DNA from: Polyangium fumosum
Lineage (GTDB): Bacteria > Myxococcota_A > Polyangia > Polyangiales > Polyangiaceae
DNA: 64,000 nucleotides
NCBI RefSeq assembly: GCF_005144585.1
Contig: NZ_SSMQ01000056.1
Location: 1-64,000, forward strand
Direction: 5' to 3'
The translations under genes and the position numbers were made by a program. Position 1 is the first letter of the stretch; each line of letters begins with the position of its first letter. The notes under the pieces are model-generated. The model ran no database searches and was not told where the DNA came from. It saw only the letters and a list, made by a program, of their open reading frames with translations. Shown here one piece after another: positions 7,471 to 51,810 of this stretch.

Positions 7471-10242
7471 ATGTACCACCTGCCGAATCCCCCGGAGGTC
7501 TTCGAAGGCCGAACGGACGAGCGCGCGTGGCTCTGCGAGCGGCTCACGCAAAGCCCCCTCTCCATCCTTTGGGGCCCGGTCGGCCTCGGCAAGACGGGGC
7601 TCGCGCTGCGCGTCGCCGCGGACCTTCGATTCTCACGCGCCGCCTATCACTCGGCGCTCGACACGCCCGAGGACACGACCTTCCTCATCGGCCTCGGGCG
7701 GTGCCTCGCCGGGCTCGCCGGAGAGACGGTCGAATGGCTGGCGCAGGGGCGCTCGCGCGCCGATCTCATCCTGCTGAACATCGAGCTCGCCGAGCGCGCC
7801 CGCGCCGTCGTCCTCGTCGACGACCTCCACGCGGTCGATCACGACCTCACGGAACGGTTGCTCTTATCGATCAGCCGTCACGCGCGCGCGAGCCGTTTCG
7901 TCGTGATGACACGCACGCGCCCCCGCCACGAGGAGCTCGCGGACAAGGCGCTCCGCATCGAGCCGCTCCCCGAGGACGACCTCGTCCGGCTCGTGCGTCG
8001 CTGCGCGCCCTTGCGCTCCGCCCCCGAGGCGGCGGCCCTCGCGCGCGAGGCCATGGGCTCCCCCTTCCGCGCCCGCCGCTTGGTCCTCTCGCAGGGCGCC
8101 GATCCGGGCGGGTCGCTGCTCGTCGACCTCGGCGACGAGGCGAAACGCGCCGTGCAAGCCTTGCGGGTCCTCCGCTTCGCGGTCGCGTTGCCCGCGCACG
8201 TCGCGCGCGAGCTCGACGAACGCGGGCTGATCCGGCTCACGGCGGGCGGGGTTCGTCTCGACGATCGCCTGCGCTCGCTGGTGGACACCGAGCCCCTCGA
8301 CGCCGAGGCGCGGCGTATCGCGCTTTCGCTGGTCCTCCACACCGAGGGCCCTGCCGCGGCGTTCGAGGCCGTGCGGCTCGCCATCGAGGAGGGCGACGCG
8401 GCGCTCGGCGCATCGCTGCTCGACGAGCGCCTGTTCACGCTCTGCGCGGCTGGGTATGCCGAGGGGCTCTTCGAGCTGCTCGGCCGCCTCGAAAGCCCGG
8501 CCCTGCTCGGGCATCGGCTCGGCTGCGCCGACTGGATCCACGGGGGCGCGTCGCTCGCATGGGCCACGGCCCTGCCCGAGCCCGCCGATCCCCACGTGCG
8601 CCTGCTCTGGTGCAGGTTGCTCGTGCATGGCGCCGCCGTCGCGCAGGCGCGCGACACGGCCCGCGCGCTCGCGGAGCACGGGCCGCTCGACGTCCAGACG
8701 GACGCGGCGTTGCTCCTCGCCGACATCCTCCGCCACACGGCGGAGGTCGACGCGTCGGTCGCCTTGCTCGAACGGATCGAGGTCCACAATCCCTCCCAGC
8801 GGATCGATCGCGACCTGCGGCTCGCGACCGCGCTCATGTTGCGCGGCGACTTCGCCCGCGCGACGGACATGCTCGCGTCCATGCCGGACCAGCTCCAGGG
8901 CCTCCGGGTCGAGGAGCGCCGCCGGCTGCGCGCCACGCTCGCCTCGGCGCTCCTCGCGTCTTCCCGCTTCCGCGAGCTCGAACGCGTGCTCGGCCCCGGC
9001 GAGCCGCCCGCCGATTGTCGCCCGACCGAGCTCTTCGCGCATCTCGCGCTGGCGGTCGAGCGCGGACGCTTTGGCCTGGGGCAGCGTCTCCTCGATCGCG
9101 TCGAGCCCTTCATCGACGAATCCGTCTACCTGCGCTTCGTCCACCGGTACAACACGCTCCGGTTGCGCCTCTTCGCGGGCCCCGGGCAAGGCCTGGAGGA
9201 GCTCGCGCGCGAGCTCGCCTTCGACGCCCCGCTCTTCAAGTTGCCGGAGCTCGTCGTGTGGGCCCTTTGCGCCAAGGCGGCCGTCGACGTCACGCATGCG
9301 CCGCCTGCCGCGCTCGCGGATCTGCCGGCCGGCATGGCGGTCCCGGAAGGAACGGCGCGGGTGCTGCACGAGGCGTGGCAGGGGATCGTCGCGGCACGTC
9401 GCGGCGCGGCGACGGCCTCGTTCACGGCGCCGCCGGACCTGCCGACCGACGTCGGGCTCGTCGCGCGACGCGCGGAGGCGGAGGCTGCGATCGCCCGGGA
9501 GGAGCTCGATCAGGCCGACGGCATCCTCGAAGGCGCGCTGGATATCGCCCAGCGCGAGGGCTTCGCGATCGAAGAGGCGAACCTGCTCGCCCTCCTGCTC
9601 GACGTCCGCCTCCTCCGCGCGGCGCGGGGCACGAGCGCGCGCACGCTCGTCGAGCTCATCGCGCGCATGCTTGCGCAGGCCGCGGAGCGACTCGGCTCGG
9701 CGCGCCTCGCCGCGGAGGCGCGCCTCGCGACGTGGCTCGTCTCGGACCGGAGGGACCCGGCCGTCCTCCTGGAGATGGCCGAAGACCCGGCCTCGCCCGT
9801 CGTGCGCCGGCGGGCGCGAGGGCTTCTCGGACGCGAGGTCACGCTCGACGCCTTGGACCGAAGAATCGTGGAGCGCTCGACCCACGCGGTGACGAGGAGT
9901 GAGGATCTGGTGGTGGTGGTGCTCGACCTCGAACAACGCACCCTGCGGCTGCCCTCGGGCAAGCAGGTGGACCTGTCGTCGGCGGACCTGCACGTGCGCA
10001 TCCTGGAGGTCCTCGTGCGCGGCGGCGGGCGCGCGACGAAGCAGGACCTGGTCCTCGGCGCGTGGGGCCTCGCGAGCTACCATCCGCACCGCGATGACAA
10101 GCGACTCCAGGTCGCTGTCCACCGGATGCGGCAGGTGCTGGAAGAAAACCCGAAAGAGCCGGCGCTGCTCCTCCGCGACGGAGACGGCTACCGCCTCGGC
10201 GCGCCCGTGCGCCTCGGCCGCCTCGGCGCGCGCGCGATGTAA
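7471..10242 (+). CDS. STAND-type ATPase with C-terminal winged-helix DNA-binding domain
   Basis: A 923-residue cytoplasmic regulator. Residues 35-42 (GPVGLGKT) are a Walker A motif and VVLVDDLHAVD at about 113-123 is a Walker B. MTRTRP is a probable sensor arginine region. The long middle is helical and Ala/Leu/Arg-rich, as in TPR-type arrays. Residues about 813-911 look like an OmpR/SARP winged helix: a strand pair, LSSADLHVRILEVLV, a recognition-helix region and the closing GDGYRLG wing. In AfsR-like proteins this domain is N-terminal; here it is C-terminal. A direct repeat follows the stop codon and precedes the next lipoprotein gene, a possible target. Confidence 0.88.
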   Translation: MYHLPNPPEVFEGRTDERAWLCERLTQSPLSILWGPVGLGKTGLALRVAADLRFSRAAYHSALDTPEDTTFLIGLGRCLAGLAGETVEWLAQGRSRADLILLNIELAERARAVVLVDDLHAVDHDLTERLLLSISRHARASRFVVMTRTRPRHEELADKALRIEPLPEDDLVRLVRRCAPLRSAPEAAALAREAMGSPFRARRLVLSQGADPGGSLLVDLGDEAKRAVQALRVLRFAVALPAHVARELDERGLIRLTAGGVRLDDRLRSLVDTEPLDAEARRIALSLVLHTEGPAAAFEAVRLAIEEGDAALGASLLDERLFTLCAAGYAEGLFELLGRLESPALLGHRLGCADWIHGGASLAWATALPEPADPHVRLLWCRLLVHGAAVAQARDTARALAEHGPLDVQTDAALLLADILRHTAEVDASVALLERIEVHNPSQRIDRDLRLATALMLRGDFARATDMLASMPDQLQGLRVEERRRLRATLASALLASSRFRELERVLGPGEPPADCRPTELFAHLALAVERGRFGLGQRLLDRVEPFIDESVYLRFVHRYNTLRLRLFAGPGQGLEELARELAFDAPLFKLPELVVWALCAKAAVDVTHAPPAALADLPAGMAVPEGTARVLHEAWQGIVAARRGAATASFTAPPDLPTDVGLVARRAEAEAAIAREELDQADGILEGALDIAQREGFAIEEANLLALLLDVRLLRAARGTSARTLVELIARMLAQAAERLGSARLAAEARLATWLVSDRRDPAVLLEMAEDPASPVVRRRARGLLGREVTLDALDRRIVERSTHAVTRSEDLVVVVLDLEQRTLRLPSGKQVDLSSADLHVRILEVLVRGGGRATKQDLVLGAWGLASYHPHRDDKRLQVAVHRMRQVLEENPKEPALLLRDGDGYRLGAPVRLGRLGARAM

Positions 10243-10253
10243 CCGCCCGTAAC
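10237..10253 (+). promoter_or_regulatory. heptamer direct repeat upstream of lipoprotein gene
   Basis: GTAACCG occurs at 10237-10243 and again at 10247-10253, a 10-base period. It overlaps the stop codon of the STAND regulator and lies 87 bases before the lipoprotein start at 10340. Direct heptamers about one helical turn apart are the usual sites of OmpR/SARP winged-helix proteins, and the gene just upstream encodes one. Binding is inference. Confidence 0.4.
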
Positions 10254-10339
10254 CGGAAGCGCGCCCGACCGAGGTGCATAGTGCTCTCCGTCAACCCAAC
10301 GCGCTCTCTTGCAGCGCGGAAATCGATAACGGAGGCACC

Positions 10340-44224: not shown

Positions 44225-44256
44225 GGGGGCGCGTGGTCCCGCGGGCCGGCGCCCCC
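44225..44256. terminator. bidirectional terminator hairpin
   Basis: GGGGGCGC at 44225-44232 pairs with GCGCCCCC at 44249-44256, eight G/C pairs with a 16-base loop that can itself fold, between convergent genes. No T-tract. Confidence 0.55.
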
Positions 44257-45998
44257 TACCGAAGCTCGACCCTCCTGCCCGCATCATCCGTGCGCACCCA
44301 GCACCCCGCCTCTTCGTCCCACACGACCCGCCCAGGGTTGTCCCTCGGCGCTTGGCCCAGCAAGCGCGCGTCTTGCGGGTTTCGGGTGACCTCGAAGATC
44401 TGAGCGTCGATGTCGTAAAAGGCGACGGCCCCATCGCGGGCGCGCACGGCATAGAGTTCCTTTTTGAGCGTAGGCGCGCTCCCCGGCACCTCGATGGGCG
44501 GATCGGGCCGCGTCCCGGGCTTCACGAAGACCACCGCCAGGTGGTTGTTTTTCACGCCGATCAGCGCGAAGAAGCCGCCTTCGAGCGCGAGCACCTGTTC
44601 GATCTTCTCGAGCGCGACCTCCCCCACGCGCGCCGTGGCCACGTCCGCCGCGGGCGCGCCGTGCGCGACGTGCTCGACGGCGCAGCGCTCCCTCGTGGGC
44701 CCGTCGCAGCCGACGAACAGGGTGTCCTGCCGGCTCGAGGCCGACACCTGGAAATGCATGGCCATGTAATCGTGCGAGACCACGAGCGCGCGATGCGCGG
44801 GCTCCCAGCGGGCGAGGCGCCCGGCGCCGGCGACGAGCAGCTCGTCGTCCGACAGGAGCGAAAGGCGGACGGCGATCCAGTCGGTGCCGTGGGTGTTGAT
44901 GCCCGAGAGCCAGGGCCCGACCTTTCCATCCTGGAGGCGGACCGCGGCGACCGAGAAGTTGTCGACCGCAAAATAGGCCGTGCGCTCGCTCGGCGCCTTG
45001 CCCGTGCAGCAAGCCGCGTCGATGATGTTGCCGCCGAGCTCGAAGACATCGAGCAGGCGTTCGCCCGAGAAGCGCCAGAGACGGTTGTCGTCACCGCCGC
45101 CGGCGAGGATGCCGGTGACCGGATCGAAGGTGACCGCGCGCTGATCGCGGGCCATCCCGCCATGGGTCGCTCGATACACGTTCATCGCGGAGGTCGAATC
45201 AAAGACGGACTCGTACGACGACGGCTTGGAGACGCCGTAGCCGTAGATGTCAATCGTGTCTCGGTTGCTCGCGACGGCGACCTGGTCGGGGCGCCCGGGC
45301 ATGGGGAACACGTCGTTGGAGTCGCTGCCTACCACGCGGCTCTCTCGGGAGGTGATGTCGAGAAGGTTCACGTACGCCCCGGCGATCACAACGCGGGCGC
45401 CGTCGGCCGAGAAGCGCATGCGGCGGGGGTAGGCGACCTCGGGGAACGAAGCGACGGGGGCGAGCGACGGGAACGAGACGACCTCGACGCGGACCTTTTT
45501 GTCGCTTGTGTCGATGGCGTAAGCGATCGTCGCGCCGTCGGGCGAAGCGGCGACGTCGAGCACGGGCGACGGCACGAGACGGACGCGCATGGCGAGGGTG
45601 CGCGTCTCGTGGAGCCAGAGGCCGGTGGGGCTCGCCACGACGAACCACGTCCCGTCGCCCACCGGCGCGACGCTCCGCGCGGCGTGCGGGACGAAGCGGA
45701 GGGCGCCGTCCTCGCCGGGGAGGATCGCGCCGCGCAGGGGGCGCTCGAAGTCGCCGTCGACGGGGAGCGTCGACGTGTCGCCGCGCGCGCCGACGCGGCG
45801 CTCGGGGAGGAGGAGGGGCGCGGGTGCGCCCTCGGGGAGCGTTTCGGGGATGGGCAGCCGAAGCGTAGGGCCGAGGGGGACGGGGCGCTGCTTGAGGGGG
45901 CGCTCGGTCCACGGGCGCTCCTTGCGGCCGCACGCCGAGGGCCCGGCGAGGAGCGCGAGACCGGCGAGGGCGCAAAGCAGGCGGGCGGCGTGGTTCAT
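44256..45998 (-). CDS. beta-propeller lipoprotein
   Basis: A 580-residue exported protein with a signal peptide and lipobox GPSAC. A Pro/Arg-rich arm leads to WD40/YVTN-like repeats: VAPVGDGTWFVVASPTGLWLHETRTLAMR, LDVAASPDGATIAYAIDTSDKKVRV and RMRFSADGARVVIAGAYVNLLDI among others. There is a central Cys pair (AACCTGK) and more Cys in FVGCDGPTRERC. It is probably a surface protein that binds a ligand or partner through the propeller. Start at 45998 is chosen for the signal; the frame is open beyond. Divergent from the PPC-like lipoprotein at 46341. Confidence 0.87.
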   Translation of the reverse strand: MNHAARLLCALAGLALLAGPSACGRKERPWTERPLKQRPVPLGPTLRLPIPETLPEGAPAPLLLPERRVGARGDTSTLPVDGDFERPLRGAILPGEDGALRFVPHAARSVAPVGDGTWFVVASPTGLWLHETRTLAMRVRLVPSPVLDVAASPDGATIAYAIDTSDKKVRVEVVSFPSLAPVASFPEVAYPRRMRFSADGARVVIAGAYVNLLDITSRESRVVGSDSNDVFPMPGRPDQVAVASNRDTIDIYGYGVSKPSSYESVFDSTSAMNVYRATHGGMARDQRAVTFDPVTGILAGGGDDNRLWRFSGERLLDVFELGGNIIDAACCTGKAPSERTAYFAVDNFSVAAVRLQDGKVGPWLSGINTHGTDWIAVRLSLLSDDELLVAGAGRLARWEPAHRALVVSHDYMAMHFQVSASSRQDTLFVGCDGPTRERCAVEHVAHGAPAADVATARVGEVALEKIEQVLALEGGFFALIGVKNNHLAVVFVKPGTRPDPPIEVPGSAPTLKKELYAVRARDGAVAFYDIDAQIFEVTRNPQDARLLGQAPRDNPGRVVWDEEAGCWVRTDDAGRRVELR

Positions 45999-46340
45999 GC
46001 GCGACGGACGATAGGCCACGCAGGTGGCGGCAGGCAACATGTGGCGGGGAGCAACATCCCTGATCTGCGTGTCCTGCGCCGCCGGGACGTGCCCGCGCCG
46101 AAGGCCCGCGCCTCCCTCGCGAACGCCGCGGGAAAACCTCGTGGGATTCTTACTCGTCCGCGGAAGAACCGGTACTCGCGTCCCCTTCGAGGTGGGCTTC
46201 CGCAGACGCTTTTGAGGAGGGTCACGGCGATGTAAGACGCATGTAAGTGCCTCGTCAGCCATCTTCGGGCCAGGTCTGTGCCGACCGGAGCGCAAACGAT
46301 GACGCCGCGCGCCGGGCCCTTCCACCCCACGGAGACAGAC
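45999..46340. other. divergent intergenic region with direct repeats
   Basis: A 342-base non-coding gap between two divergent lipoprotein genes. The only clear element is the ATGTAAG direct repeat at 46230-46247. Rare ATG codons and no ribosome site make coding unlikely. Confidence 0.6.
46230..46247 (+). promoter_or_regulatory. SARP/AfsR-type direct repeat, copy A
   Basis: ATGTAAG at 46230-46236 and 46241-46247, an 11-base period, oriented toward the lipoprotein gene at 46341 and 94 bases upstream of it. A near-identical element precedes the lipoprotein at 48884. The geometry is that of SARP heptamer boxes. Confidence 0.65.
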
Positions 46341-47756
46341 ATGATGGTCCGCAAGAGCTTCCTCCTCGTCGCCGGAGGTTTCCTCGCTTTGATCGGCGCC
46401 TGTAGCAGCGACGATGGCGCCGCGTCGAGTGCGTCGGCAGCGTCGGAGGTCGTCGAATTGCCCCTGCACGGAGAAGACAACCTCTTCCCCGGATTCGCCT
46501 ATTCCACGGGGCTCCAGCCGAGCGGCTCGCCGGTGCAGGCATCGTTCGACCTCACGGCGAAGGGCGTGGCGACGGTGGACGCCAAGGCAGCGCCGAGCGG
46601 ATCGAAGAGCGCGCCGAAGCTCAACGGCATGGCGGGCAGCGGCAAGGTCGCGCTTTCGGGTGGCTTTTCGATGGTGGGCAACCTCAAGGTCGACATCAAC
46701 ATGTTGCCTCCCTACGACGGCCCGATCCCCGGCCTCGACAACGTCGAAATCGCTTTCGAGGGGAGCACGGCGTTCGACCCCTTCTCGATCGGGACGGGCG
46801 TCACGACGCAGGCGCTGATCCCGCCCGTGCGGCTGCCCGACATCCCGCTGCCCGGAAACATCCCGGGCTCGCTCGTCCTGGAGATCGAGGACGGGAGCTT
46901 CGTCGAAATCGGATTCACCGGCACCTGCGCCGCGATTGACGGGACCGACGTGGCCTACGAAGGCGACATCGTGCGTGGCGGGTCGCTCCTCATTCAGCCG
47001 AGCATCGAGATCAAGGTGCCCCTCGTCGGCACGAAGACGTTCGAGATCCCCAAGTTCACGGTGGACCTCGCCCTCGGCACCACGAACCTCGCCATGAGCG
47101 CCGAGGTATCGACGTTTGGCCTGCCCGCGAGCGGAGACGAGGCCAAGGTGGGGACGTGCGAAGGCGATGGGGCGGGCGGCGGCGGCGGATCGTCGTCGTC
47201 GTCGTCGTCGTCCTCCTCCGGCACCGGTGGCACGGGCGGCTCGGGCACGGGAGGTTCAGGCGCGGGCGGCTCGGGGGGTTCGGGCGGGGGGCCCGCCTGC
47301 AACGAGGACCTGAATCCCGAGCCGAACAATACCAAGGACACGGCGACCAAGATCACGACCAACATCAGTTGCAGCCCGCTGACGGAGGACACACGGGTCG
47401 GCGTGCTCAGCGGCGAGAGCGACATCGACATGTATTCGTACCCGAACGGGATCGACACCTGCGCCGGCCCGGCCAAGCCGTGGCTCAAGGCCTATCCGAC
47501 CAAACTCTCGACGTGGTTCTGCCTCATCCCGCATTGCGCCACCAAGGAAATCCCGGACATCCTCGAATGCCAGGACGGGCAATACTACACGATTGACGGC
47601 ATGGAAGCCTGCTGCAACCAGGGCGCCGACGTGCTGATGCACCTCCAATGCACCGTCGGCGGGAGCACCCTGACGAACTACCTGGTGTACGTCGATCAGC
47701 CCGGCGTGAACGAGTGCACCGATTACGCCTACTCGCTCACGTTCGTCTCACCTTGA
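46341..47756 (+). CDS. secreted lipoprotein with Ser/Gly linker and PPC-like C-terminal domain
   Basis: A 471-residue lipoprotein (lipobox ALIGAC). Residues about 30-280 are a beta-rich domain with few cysteines. A linker of Gly and ten Ser plus GTGGSG repeats follows (encoded at 47165-47290). The C-terminal Cys-rich part begins CNEDLNPEPNNTKDTATKI and includes GVLSGESDIDMYSY, which resembles bacterial pre-peptidase C-terminal (PPC) domains. Start at 46341 (ATGATG) with GGAG upstream. An ATGTAAG direct repeat lies 94 bases before it. Its stop region overlaps the convergent next gene by 9 bases. Confidence 0.87.
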   Translation: MMVRKSFLLVAGGFLALIGACSSDDGAASSASAASEVVELPLHGEDNLFPGFAYSTGLQPSGSPVQASFDLTAKGVATVDAKAAPSGSKSAPKLNGMAGSGKVALSGGFSMVGNLKVDINMLPPYDGPIPGLDNVEIAFEGSTAFDPFSIGTGVTTQALIPPVRLPDIPLPGNIPGSLVLEIEDGSFVEIGFTGTCAAIDGTDVAYEGDIVRGGSLLIQPSIEIKVPLVGTKTFEIPKFTVDLALGTTNLAMSAEVSTFGLPASGDEAKVGTCEGDGAGGGGGSSSSSSSSSSGTGGTGGSGTGGSGAGGSGGSGGGPACNEDLNPEPNNTKDTATKITTNISCSPLTEDTRVGVLSGESDIDMYSYPNGIDTCAGPAKPWLKAYPTKLSTWFCLIPHCATKEIPDILECQDGQYYTIDGMEACCNQGADVLMHLQCTVGGSTLTNYLVYVDQPGVNECTDYAYSLTFVSP

Positions 47757-48884
47757 AGAGACGCCGCGCGCTGCACCCTCGCCCCGCAGCGCGCGGTTGT
47801 ACCGCTCCACGAAGCGCCGGACCTCGCTCTTCGTGAAGAGGTGCTCGTCCGTCCATCCGTCATAGGGCGCGCCGAGGAGCGCGAGCCCCGGCGCCAGCGT
47901 CGGGACTGCAATGCCCAGCATGATCCCTCCGACCGCAGGCACGCGCCGGTCGGGCCCCGCGGGATTGTCCGTCGCGAGAATCACCACGCCCACCGCCGCC
48001 GCCAAGAGGCCGAGGCTCCCGAGGACCACGCCGGTCGCGCGCATCTGCGGGCTGCGATCGCGTAAGAAATCGTCGAGCTCGTGGGAGCCGGTCCGGTTCG
48101 CGTACCGGCGTATGAACTCGTTCTCCGTGATGCAGCGCTTCTTCGTGCAGAGCTCGAAATGGTCTCGATTCCGCGTCGACTCGCGAACCTCGATGCTCTC
48201 TGCATCGTACGTCGCCCCTCCCGCGCGCTCGGGTTCCGCCGCGTCTGCGGAGGGGGGCAGAGCGCCCTGGCCGCCGAGCGCGAAGGCAACAACCCCGCGC
48301 ACGTGGCGCCGCTCGAGGCGCGTGAGTTCGAGCGGACGGGGGCCCTCATCGAACGCGACGTCCGCAGGGTCGCCGGGCGCCGTCTCGCGCGCGAGCATGA
48401 TCTCCCCTTCGCCGAGCGTCGCCGACCGGACGTAGCCGACGCCGCACGAGGCGCTCTGGCAGCACGCTGCATAGGCCTTCGTCGCGGCCTTCTCGACGCG
48501 TGTGCGCACGTCGAAGCGGTAGTAGACGTGCGACGCGCCGGGCGCTCCGGCCGCGCGCGCGGCGTCCGGGGTGAGGACCTCCGCGTCTTCGATGACGTCG
48601 CCGGGGACCGGCCGCGGCTCGACGTCGACGAGCGCGTCCGCGCACGGGTTGGGCGCGAGCTGGTCGGCGAGCGGCCGCGTCGTGACGTAAGGCGCGAGGA
48701 GGACACGGCCGAGCAGGGACGCATCTTCGGAGGGGGCGAAGACGAGGTGTTCGTCGCCCGCGAGGGGAGCGCGCGCGCGGAAGGCGGCGAACGCGCCGCC
48801 GCGCAAGGTGGGAGAGGTGTTGTTCACACAGCCGGCGGTGGACGCCAGCACGAGGAGGGCGGCGAGGCCCGCGCGTGGTTTCAT
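47748..48884 (-). CDS. lipoprotein with two C-terminal membrane helices
   Basis: A 378-residue protein. Signal peptide and lipobox STAGC at about residue 19. The first part is a mixed domain with Cys pairs (AACCQSASC) and many charged residues. Two hydrophobic helices appear near residues 283-303 (VVLGSLGLLAAAVGVVILA) and 315-340. A C-terminal LFTKSEVRRFVERYN segment follows. Unknown family. AGGAG precedes ATG 48884, and an ATGTAAG direct repeat lies 53 bases upstream on the same strand. Its neighbour upstream is the large STAND regulator on the same strand, making this gene the probable regulatory target. Confidence 0.85.
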   Translation of the reverse strand: MKPRAGLAALLVLASTAGCVNNTSPTLRGGAFAAFRARAPLAGDEHLVFAPSEDASLLGRVLLAPYVTTRPLADQLAPNPCADALVDVEPRPVPGDVIEDAEVLTPDAARAAGAPGASHVYYRFDVRTRVEKAATKAYAACCQSASCGVGYVRSATLGEGEIMLARETAPGDPADVAFDEGPRPLELTRLERRHVRGVVAFALGGQGALPPSADAAEPERAGGATYDAESIEVRESTRNRDHFELCTKKRCITENEFIRRYANRTGSHELDDFLRDRSPQMRATGVVLGSLGLLAAAVGVVILATDNPAGPDRRVPAVGGIMLGIAVPTLAPGLALLGAPYDGWTDEHLFTKSEVRRFVERYNRALRGEGAARGVSSR

Positions 48885-48936
48885 GGGGCTCCTGGGTCGG
48901 AGAAAGGGAACCACGTCCACCGTGCGGTCCCGGGGG

Positions 48937-48954
48937 CTTACATGCCGCTTACAT
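48937..48954 (-). promoter_or_regulatory. SARP/AfsR-type direct repeat, copy B
   Basis: On the minus strand ATGTAAG, four bases, ATGTAAG (plus-strand CTTACAT at 48937-48943 and 48948-48954). It points toward the lipoprotein gene starting at 48884 and lies 21 bases after the end of the STAND regulator gene. The 19-base core differs from copy A at two positions only. Confidence 0.65.
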
Positions 48955-48975
48955 CCGAGGGTTCCCCCGGGGGAT

Positions 48976-51810
48976 TCAGCAGAACTCGATCGAGAGATCG
49001 GGCGAAAAGAAGTAACCGAGGTCGTTCCCGAGCAGGACCTCGCGCAGCCCGAGATCCCGCATGCGGGTCAGCATGACGTGGAGGCGGTTGCGCGCGGCGT
49101 CCGCCAGGATCCGCTCGCCGGGCCAGCCGATCTCGATGAGCTGCTCGAACGAGGACGGGCCGGCCGGCGCCGCGAGGTGGGCTCGCGCGAGCGCGACGAG
49201 CAGGCGCCGCATGACCGGTCGGTTCGCGCACGCGACGCGCGGGCCGCTCGGCGGCTCGACCCAGCGGCCGGTGGCGTCGATCCGCAGGACACGCGGCGCC
49301 GCGGGGGCCGGGGACGCGTGGGTCGCGAGCGCGCTGCCGAGCAGGCGCGCAAGCACCCGCAGCTCGGTGACCCACCGCGCGCCCGCGCCGTTCGCGGTCG
49401 CGAGCACGGCGCCGAGCCGCCTCTGGGCGCCGCTCTCGAGCGCGGCCGCGGCCCCGTCGTCGCCGTTCGTCCGCGCGCGCTCGGCCTCGGCCAGATCGAG
49501 GAACCCTTTGCAGATGTCGAGCGCGGGCAGGTGCGTGTCGACCCCCGCGTCGAGGTCTTGCTCGGCCGCCGCGAGCAGCTCGCGTGCCTCGTCGAGGTGG
49601 CCGACCGCGGCTTCGAGCACGCTCGCGACGACCGTGACGAGCCCCGAGTAGAGATGGCGGCCGAGCGCGCGCACCCGCGGGAGCGTCTCGCGTAGCTCCA
49701 GCCGCGCTTCGAGCGGACGCCCCTGCTCGAAGAGCACGACCGCGCCGCACGCCAGCGCGGCCACCTCCAGCGTGTGCTCGCCGGTGGCGCGCGCCGCGTC
49801 CCGGGCCTCGCGGTACCGGAGCGATGCCTCGCTCGGATCCCCGGCCTCCAGCGCGGCGTGCCCCAGGCCGAGCAGCAGGCGCGCGGGCGGCGCGAGGCCA
49901 AGCGCTCGGGCGTGGGCGAGCGCCTGCTCGGCGTAGGCGCGCGCGGCATCGAGCTCCCCGGCGTCGAGGTGCACGTACATGAGCTCGAGGCGCATGCTCA
50001 GCTCGAAGGGGGCCTCCCCCACCTCGCGGAAGCGTTCGAGCGCCTGCTCCACGAACATCCGCGCCCGCGGCTGCTCCCCGCGCAGCCGGGCGACGAAGCC
50101 GAGCATCGCGTACGCGAGGCCCTCCAGGCGGCGATCGCCGACCTCGATCGCGAGCCGGAGCGCGTGGTCGGCGGCGCTGCGGCTCTCCTCGAAGCGCCCG
50201 CGCAGGAGCAGGACGAGCGCGACGAAACGCCGGGCGAGCGCTTCGAGGGACACGTCGTTCGCGCGCACGGCGAGCGCCACCGCCTCGTCGAAATCGCGCT
50301 CGCTCACGTCGAGCCTCGCGACACGCCAGGCCACGCGCCCGCGGGCGATCAGCGCATGGCCGCGGACGCGCGGATCCACCTCGGCCGCGGACGGGTGCGC
50401 GAGCGCTTCGTCGAGCCAGAGCAGGTGCGCCGAGGGGGAGCCGTCGTGCCAGCGAGGCTCTTCGAGCGCCACGAGGATCCGGAGCGCGACCTCCACCTCC
50501 TTCGGAGCGCTCGACGCGAGGCCACGACGCACGACCGCGAGCAGGTTCTCGCGCTCGACGAGCAGCCGCCGCGCGGCGGCGCTCGGGTCCTTGCGCGTGA
50601 GCGCGGCAGAGCGCTCGGCGTACCCGAGGAAGTAATGCGTGTGTCGCTCGAACGCCGCCGCGCGTCCCTCCGACGCCACGAGCCGCTCCTCGGCGTACTT
50701 GCGCACGCTCCGGTACATCGTGAGCCCCAGCTCGCCTTTGCCGTCGTCGTGCCGCGCATGAGTCAGGAGCGACTTGTCACGCAGCGCTTGCAAGGCGAAG
50801 AGCGCGTCGTCCCCGCCGGGATCGAGCACGGCTTCGGCCGCGTCGGCGCCGATGCGGCCGTGAAAGACCGCGCATTGCGCGAAGGCCTCCTGCTCCCAGG
50901 GTGGAAGGAGCCCCCACGACCAGTCGATCGCGTCGCGCAGGGTCGATTGACGGCCGCCGGCCTTGTCGCGCCCCCGGAGGACGTCGATGCGCCGCTCCAG
51001 ACGTTCGAGCAGCTCGGCCGGCGTGAGCGTGCCGAAGCGCGCGGCCGCGAGCTCGATGGCGAGCGGCAGCCCATCGAGCTCCCGCACGAGGCGCGCCACG
51101 ACGGGCCCTTCGTCCGGCGTCGGGTCGTACCCGGGGACCACCTCGCGGACGCGCTCCATCCACAACGCGACGGCTTCGCTGCCGGCGAGATCATCCCGCT
51201 CGGGCAACGAGAGCGGCGTGAGCTCGTGCACGACCTCCCCGGGGATGCGCAATCGCTCCCGGCTCGTCACGAGGAGCTGCAGCTCGGGCACCGAAGGGAG
51301 CCACGCGCCCACGGTCGCGTCTGCGTGTTCGACGACGTGCTCGAACGGATCGAGCACCAGGAGCGCGGGCCCGAAGGCCGCGAGCGAGCGGACCATCCGC
51401 TCCCTCAGCTCACGCTCGCCGGCCCCTTCGGGTTCGGGCACGCCGATCGCGCGCGCGACGGCGGCGCGGATCCCGGCCACCCCGCGCGCGCCTTCGAGGT
51501 CGCAAAACACGACCCGCAGCGGCTCGTCCTGCGCGGGATCCGCGAGCCGGGCCGCCAGGCGCGCCGCGAGCGCCGTCTTGCCGATCCCCGCGGCGCCGGT
51601 GAGCGTGACGAGCGGCGCCCCTTCGGCGACGAGCTGCCCGACACGCGCGAGGTCGGCGCTCCGGCCGACGAAGCTCCGGGAGGCCCTCCGCGGACGGCCT
51701 CGGAGCGCGTGCTCCCCCTCCTGCGCGCGACGCCCTCGTGGGTCCGATCCGGGCTGCACACGAAGCCGCAGCGATGAACGAACACGCCCTCTCGTCACGT
51801 TGGATGCCAA
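48976..51810 (-). CDS. AfsR/LuxR-like STAND ATPase with TPRs and C-terminal winged helix
   Basis: A 944-residue regulator. Walker A TGAAGIGKT at 71-79 follows FVGRSADLARV. LLVLD near 150 is Walker B and LVTSRERL the sensor region; VRELDGLPLAIELAAARFG is the GLPLA motif of NB-ARC/AfsR proteins. The middle is a TPR-like helical array (LARRFVALVLLLRGRFEESRSAADHAL and similar). Residues about 845-944 look like an OmpR-type winged helix ending LLGNDLGYFFSPDLSIEF. Start codon is TTG at 51810, or GTG 12 bases later; no ATG is available. It probably controls the lipoprotein genes bearing ATGTAAG repeats. Confidence 0.88.
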   Translation of the reverse strand: MASNVTRGRVRSSLRLRVQPGSDPRGRRAQEGEHALRGRPRRASRSFVGRSADLARVGQLVAEGAPLVTLTGAAGIGKTALAARLAARLADPAQDEPLRVVFCDLEGARGVAGIRAAVARAIGVPEPEGAGERELRERMVRSLAAFGPALLVLDPFEHVVEHADATVGAWLPSVPELQLLVTSRERLRIPGEVVHELTPLSLPERDDLAGSEAVALWMERVREVVPGYDPTPDEGPVVARLVRELDGLPLAIELAAARFGTLTPAELLERLERRIDVLRGRDKAGGRQSTLRDAIDWSWGLLPPWEQEAFAQCAVFHGRIGADAAEAVLDPGGDDALFALQALRDKSLLTHARHDDGKGELGLTMYRSVRKYAEERLVASEGRAAAFERHTHYFLGYAERSAALTRKDPSAAARRLLVERENLLAVVRRGLASSAPKEVEVALRILVALEEPRWHDGSPSAHLLWLDEALAHPSAAEVDPRVRGHALIARGRVAWRVARLDVSERDFDEAVALAVRANDVSLEALARRFVALVLLLRGRFEESRSAADHALRLAIEVGDRRLEGLAYAMLGFVARLRGEQPRARMFVEQALERFREVGEAPFELSMRLELMYVHLDAGELDAARAYAEQALAHARALGLAPPARLLLGLGHAALEAGDPSEASLRYREARDAARATGEHTLEVAALACGAVVLFEQGRPLEARLELRETLPRVRALGRHLYSGLVTVVASVLEAAVGHLDEARELLAAAEQDLDAGVDTHLPALDICKGFLDLAEAERARTNGDDGAAAALESGAQRRLGAVLATANGAGARWVTELRVLARLLGSALATHASPAPAAPRVLRIDATGRWVEPPSGPRVACANRPVMRRLLVALARAHLAAPAGPSSFEQLIEIGWPGERILADAARNRLHVMLTRMRDLGLREVLLGNDLGYFFSPDLSIEFC

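Follow-up and report, generated by a model that had tools for sequence, protein, structure and literature searches.

A STAND NTPase regulator of Polyangium fumosum and the two lipoprotein genes adjacent to it probably form a self-contained sensor-regulator module, in which the regulator would bind two ATGTAAG-N4-ATGTAAG direct repeats as a tandem dimer and activate both genes. This reading was built from comparisons of sequence across the locus, the genus and the taxonomic family.

Two direct repeats and two lipoprotein genes adjoin a STAND regulator

The window, i.e., the whole stretch of 64,000 nucleotides that was analysed, contains the following features.

46230-46247, plus strand: copy A of the repeat, ATGTAAG-ACGC-ATGTAAG, 11-bp period, ATGTAAGACGCATGTAAG; reads toward lipoprotein gene 1
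46271-46276, plus strand: putative, weak candidate -10 element of lipoprotein gene 1, CAGGTC, 23 nt past copy A
46341-47756, plus strand: lipoprotein gene 1, 471 aa, lipobox LIGAC, Ser/Gly-rich linker; predicted target
47748-48884, minus strand: lipoprotein gene 2, 378 aa, lipobox STAGC; predicted target
48919-48924, minus strand: putative candidate -10 element of lipoprotein gene 2, CACGGT, 12 nt past copy B
48937-48954, minus strand: copy B of the repeat, ATGTAAG-CGGC-ATGTAAG, 11-bp period, ATGTAAGCGGCATGTAAG; between the regulator stop codon and lipoprotein gene 2
48976-51810, minus strand: regulator, STAND NTPase + TPR + C-terminal winged helix, 944 aa, TTG start, conserved leader
48979-49287, minus strand: C-terminal OmpR-like winged-helix domain, residues 842-944 (hhalign)
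49045-49098, minus strand: predicted recognition helix AARNRLHVMLTRMRDLGL, residues 905-922, [RK]NRLHV type
49555-50238, minus strand: TPR region of the regulator, residues about 525-752 (TPR_12), resembling the AfsR TPR
50977-51672, minus strand: STAND/NOD ATPase region, residues about 47-278 (AAA_22, NACHT and NB-ARC matches)

A preliminary description of this DNA had placed the two repeats at these coordinates and strands, and both were recovered there as exact copies; its start-codon distances were likewise correct, with 93 bases between repeat and start codon for copy A and 52 bases for copy B, as were the two differences that it counted between the 19-base cores. The copies are the predicted binding sites of a regulator dimer. 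When up to two mismatches were allowed, copies A and B were the only matches to ATGTAAG-N4-ATGTAAG in the 64-kb window. In 100 dinucleotide shuffles of the window the mean was 0.01 matches and two were never reached, in line with the earlier judgement that a chance pair is very unlikely. Further, the intergenic DNA of the window (8.9 kb) contained no other 11-bp-period repeats scoring at least 14.5.

The preliminary description also proposed a dedicated lipoprotein regulon. Its central claim is supported by the comparisons given below, but a scan of the whole 12.98 Mb Polyangium genome for the motif returned exact copies at this locus only (n = 2), and therefore the regulon is apparently limited to two genes rather than genome-wide. 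Tolerance of up to two mismatches added one further site across the genome, compared to three for a reversed control pattern.

Both lipoprotein open reading frames were as previously described, with clear lipoboxes, and the two products are predicted bacterial lipoproteins, each having a signal peptide with a lipobox cysteine; they may be exposed at the surface. Searches of Pfam, NCBIfam and PADLOC gave no match for lipoprotein 1, nor did searches of curated families for lipoprotein 2, homologs of which occur in 17 of the 108 genomes searched in the taxonomic family. A reading of the locus as a defence system was rejected, the matches in its favour being confined to weak NTPase and TPR ones. 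In lipoprotein 1, a Ser-run (TCG repeats) followed by a Gly-rich linker (GGC-rich repeats) at window positions 47180-47290 joins two parts of the protein, and similar linkers were seen in many lipoproteins adjoining regulators of the STAND/C-terminal winged-helix family.

The regulator carries a predicted OmpR-like winged helix at its C-terminus

The regulator reading frame also agreed with its earlier description (48976-51810, minus strand, 944 aa). Domain searches matched AAA_22 (3.8e-11), NACHT (3.8e-7) and TPR_12 (1.9e-17), together with a weak NB-ARC match under its cut-off; the protein thus combines an AP-ATPase/NACHT-type P-loop NTPase with a superhelical repeat region, as STAND proteins do.

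Searched alone, the C-terminal domain of about 100 residues gave no Pfam match, Trans_reg_C included. An alignment of 46 winged-helix sequences of the family was compared by hhalign to 16 OmpR-type domains from the same genome and matched them with an E value of 4.8e-5 and a probability of 68% over 75 columns, so that NRLHVMLTRMR falls on the recognition helix and LGYFF on the hairpin of the wing. Trans_reg_C was the commonest Pfam match within the winged-helix family, at a weak level (6 of the 46, best E 0.0037). By profile similarity over the whole domain, the C-terminus is predicted to be an OmpR/PhoB-type winged helix. An AlphaFold model made from three sequences reached a mean pLDDT of 45. 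In searches of solved structures, a profile of 14 winged-helix sequences had AfsR as its best match, which was not significant (E 0.34), and a profile of 46 gave no useful match.

No BTAD domain was found in the regulator with Pfam, and for this reason it is not a SARP; nor was a receiver domain found, as a two-component response regulator would have. Its own conserved leader holds no ATGTAAG-type repeat, so autoregulation through that element is unlikely.

The repeats are conserved with the regulator within Polyangium

Five other Polyangium genomes (G001-G005) were compared. The exact repeat is present in three of them, in two copies in G002 and G003 and in one copy in G004, where the second repeat (copy B) carries a single change. 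These three genomes also have orthologs of the regulator (87-94% identity) and of lipoprotein 2 (79-90%). G001 and G005 are without the repeat, without lipoprotein 2 and without a regulator ortholog, and hold paralogous regulators only. When the regulator was used as a query against genome contigs, matches were obtained only in Polyangium sp. 6x1 and y55x31. The repeats are thus conserved in orthologous loci and co-occur with the regulator, as the proposed link between regulator, repeats and lipoprotein genes predicts; at the sequence level, they behave as conserved elements that travel with it.

Copy A is kept in G002, G003 and G004, and the DNA farther upstream diverges: the four Polyangium genomes are largely unalignable 5' of copy A, and the conserved block runs from the repeat through CTTCGGGCCAGGTCTG. 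Copy B likewise marks the start of a conserved block. No homolog of the divergent gene (44256-45998) was found in the 11-kb locus of G003, which retains copy A; this copy therefore most likely belongs to lipoprotein gene 1.

These data bear on whether the repeats could be functionless, either as one sequence duplicated together with its promoter or as a chance pair. The genome has only two copies, and near-identical elements are what a promoter duplication would be expected to leave. We nevertheless consider this explanation extremely improbable: beyond the repeats the upstream regions are unlike, each copy is separately conserved in orthologous loci, 0.01 matches are expected from the shuffles, and the same word occurs at a distant lipoprotein 2 homolog in another genus.

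Repeats of 11-bp period precede lipoprotein genes near sister regulators

Across the taxonomic family, 67 of 108 genomes together contain at least 150 regulators with this C-terminal domain, and at the level of the class the domain was matched in 97 of 241 genomes; eight regulators of the family were found in the Polyangium genome alone. Outside the genus, 100 regions around regulators were sampled by the winged-helix profile alone and searched for repeats of 11-bp period scoring at least 14.5 in non-coding upstream stretches. Around 102 non-Polyangium regulators, such repeats were found at 9 of 57 lipoprotein genes vs. 4 of 356 other genes (Fisher p 4.6e-6), on home-made gene and lipoprotein calls and with related genomes that are not independent of each other. 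One of the four other cases, at L107 (plus strand), is a lipoprotein gene with a missed start. As a control, 872 kb of DNA away from such regulators had an 11-bp repeat at 1 of 51 lipoprotein genes (p 0.018 compared to 9 of 57), and other periods from 7 to 25 reached at most 3 of 57. The link between regulator, repeat and lipoprotein gene is accordingly specific to period 11 and to lipoprotein genes near such regulators.

A plain scan past the regulator stop codon gave a modest 11-bp excess, which became clear after the upstream regions of lipoprotein genes were separated. Counting 11-bp repeats over whole loci, coding DNA included, was abandoned: periods of 3n are drowned out by the periodicity of codons, and the counts carried no information. 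No 11-bp repeat could be recognised beside most regulators of the family, and the same is true of most lipoprotein genes near them.

Several loci illustrate the arrangement. In paralog group G6, CTTTCAAC-AAA-CTTTCAAC (CTTTCAAC-N3-CTTTCAAC) is conserved in five species. It lies about 20 bp past the stop codon of the regulator and about 60 bp ahead of a lipoprotein ATG, arranged as copy B is. Two-site modules resembling that of the window were seen again: TTCAGGT repeats lie upstream of two lipoprotein genes at L151, and in genus g19 TTAAG-N6-TTAAG precedes two paralogous lipoprotein genes at each of the loci L147, L148 and L165. Comparison thus shows sister regulators to have putative 11-bp-period elements of their own before nearby lipoprotein genes, and supports recurrence of the predicted arrangement (regulator, 11-bp repeat and lipoprotein gene) in at least eight genera.

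The lipoprotein genes of L147, L148 and L165 share a common leader, CCTAGCCTGTTCGGCGGAGGTCACGCC and variants of it, and these pairs are apparently duplicated targets of one regulator. In group G1, TCGATAA-N4-TCGATAA lies upstream of the regulator in four Polyangium species (L005 at about 1319-1350, L028, L030 and L031); this element possibly consists of three 11-bp units (CATAAGATG, CGATAATC and CGATAAGATG).

The repeat word varies with the recognition helix

The relation between recognition helix and repeat word was analysed in 116-119 regulators with 4-18 kb of flanking DNA, mostly about 9 kb, one mismatch being allowed. Of 54 regulators in which asparagine precedes the helix arginine, 7 were accompanied by TGTAAG repeats, vs. 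none of 62 others, and five of these seven were of the [RK]NRLHV type, which comprises only seven regulators overall. TGAAAG repeats were found with 8 of 12 regulators having E or M before the helix arginine vs. none of 104 others (5 of 9 vs. 0 of 95 when orthologs were merged, p 1.4e-6); the recognition helix ERVYAA pairs with TGAAAG. TTAAG repeats occurred with N types only, mainly ANRIYVAMNQLR. At L130, which surfaced in this test without being picked, AGTAAGCGCCGTGTAAG directly follows a KNRLHV regulator and a lipoprotein gene lies downstream.

These matches lend support to the earlier proposal that the C-terminal winged helix reads the repeats, with binding as the presumed basis, and point to a provisional code in which the word follows the helix. 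Shared ancestry explains part of the match; sites and helices were co-inherited while target genes changed, as binding predicts.

The same words were also sought in other genomes. TGTAAG-N5-TGTAAG had 22 matches in 108 genomes. Among those outside Polyangium, a G096 site stands at a divergent pair of lipoprotein genes with a regulator 1.3 kb away, and sites in G128, G129 and G029 lie directly past regulators or at most 1.5 kb from them. A further site in G128 (L287) lies 51-74 bp 5' of a distant lipoprotein 2 homolog, the range being set by the choice of start; no such regulator was found within 8 kb of this gene. TGAAAG-N5-TGAAAG was found in the G6 orthologs and, in addition, at most 1.5 kb from a regulator in G127, G129, G068 and G069 and at 7.1 kb in G128. 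By a rough estimate (about 250 regulators in about 830 Mb), about one in two hundred matches would have a regulator within 8 kb by chance. The copy in G033 was discarded as probably due to chance; it sits in a predicted coding region on a short contig without a regulator. At L283 (about 8167) in G098, GTGTAAGCGACGTGTAAG lies between two divergent lipoprotein genes, and no regulator of the family was found within 8 kb.

Regulators of the OmpR/PhoB family typically read direct heptamers at 11 bp, at least 16 Trans_reg_C proteins were counted in the genome, and L283 and L287 carry the repeat with no STAND regulator nearby. Another OmpR/PhoB-type response regulator for envelope genes might thus use the repeats, the nearby STAND regulator being incidental. 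This appears improbable to us, since a global regulator should have more than two sites in 13 Mb, the presence of the repeat tracks the STAND regulator, and the word varies with the recognition helix of the neighbouring STAND regulator.

Promoter geometry

A -10-like [TC]ANNNT hexamer was found 22-24 nt past the repeat at 12 of 23 sites, a partly hand-picked list, and none of 2000 shuffles reached that number. A minor second peak, at 12 nt (four sites), lies one helical turn closer. The spacing of 22-24 nt puts the repeat at about -52 to -36, which is usual for OmpR/PhoB-type activators. In the window, CAGGTC lies inside a block that is invariant in the four Polyangium genomes, and its position fits the 22-24 nt peak, its last base not being T. 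The candidate -10 element of lipoprotein gene 2 reads CAC[CG]GT across the four genomes.

Among the points against the activation model are that the -10 elements of both window promoters are weak and that the winged-helix fold is predicted from profile similarity. Further, copy B is near its -10-like element (12 nt) and the start codon, and some family sites lie just 30-40 bp before the ATG, as could be the case if the same regulator bound the repeats and repressed the lipoprotein genes or acted as a switch. We hold this to be rather unlikely, given that 12 of the 23 repeats end at the usual place of an OmpR/PhoB-type activator. Moreover, the characterised protein closest to the regulator in domain make-up, AfsR, activates transcription (PMC10936776). 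Activation is the reading followed below.

Comparison with known systems

Like MalT-type STAND activators, the regulator has a STAND NTPase, a TPR-like sensor (with a weak MalT-like TPR match) and a C-terminal DNA-binding domain. In MalT that domain is a LuxR-type (GerE) helix-turn-helix and the DNA sites are different, whereas in the regulator the domain is predicted to be OmpR-like. With OmpR/PhoB response regulators it shares an alignable recognition helix and GY hairpin, as well as tandem 7-bp half-sites 11 bp apart near -35; it differs from them in that it has no receiver domain and has STAND NTPase and TPR regions as input.

The closest likeness is to AfsR of Streptomyces coelicolor, a 'large' SARP with STAND/NOD, TPR and OmpR-type winged-helix regions and direct repeats of 11-bp period (PMC10936776). 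The winged helix of AfsR is N-terminal and followed by a BTA domain (PMC10936776), whereas that of the regulator is C-terminal and no BTAD was detected. In addition, the predicted targets of the regulator are the adjoining lipoprotein genes. SARP targets have direct repeats of 11 or 22 bp period, with the 3' repeat 8 bp from the -10 element (PMC10936776). Both window copies and the family-wide period scan agree with this period. The 8-bp spacing was not found: the distance to a -10-like element is 22-24 nt at 12 of the 23 sites, 12 nt to the candidate element for copy B and 23 nt to the weak candidate for copy A. Hence, the term 'SARP-type' used in the preliminary description fits the spacing of the repeats but not the protein, which has no BTAD and a C-terminal winged helix, nor the -10-like hexamer, mostly 22-24 nt away. 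By analogy, the regulator would work like AfsR or OmpR, yet it is not a SARP.

Proposed mechanism and significance

In the proposed mechanism, the STAND NTPase regulator would be inactive until a signal permits nucleotide binding and oligomerisation. Two subunits would then bind head to tail on the two ATGTAAG half-sites, one helical turn apart, so that each of the two promoters would carry a dimer, either over the -35 region or directly 5' of it. This would help RNA polymerase to initiate transcription of both neighbouring lipoprotein genes, whose promoters are weak. We infer that binding is direct, that the outcome is activation and not repression, that oligomerisation and a signal are involved, and that the lipoproteins may have a surface role.

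Polyangia have many STAND regulators of this kind. In the literature searched, neither a target of the family nor the arrangement across the family was found described. What appears to be new is the pattern across the family: STAND regulators with a predicted C-terminal OmpR-like domain, putative dedicated lipoprotein targets and a word that varies with the recognition helix. The sequences yield target genes, DNA sites and a provisional helix-to-word code, which gives a testable target for dozens of regulators, and the code could supply orthogonal transcription switches.

With lipoproteins as predicted targets, attention turns to the cell envelope, at which myxobacteria make decisions about kin, prey and outer-membrane exchange. 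We tentatively suggest, as a possibility somewhat short of even, that Polyangia have a large family of STAND switches, each a single protein, which is diversifying and in which every member has a word of its own, set by its recognition helix, and is wired mainly to one or two adjacent lipoprotein genes; these orthogonal modules might control the display of envelope lipoproteins, perhaps in kin recognition, predation or envelope defence.

A second STAND regulator in the window

The window contains a second STAND regulator (7471-10242, plus strand), with a more canonical C-terminal Trans_reg_C domain. A repeat of period 10, GTAACCG-N3-GTAACCG (about 10235-10260), overlaps its stop codon and is followed at about 10340 by a lipoprotein open reading frame (MSRFAGLCMLLALAPLACVAS). 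Past the ortholog of this regulator, neither a GTAACCG-type repeat nor a lipoprotein gene was found in G004 and G005; in G002 (L357), both a similar GTAACCG-type repeat and the lipoprotein gene are present.
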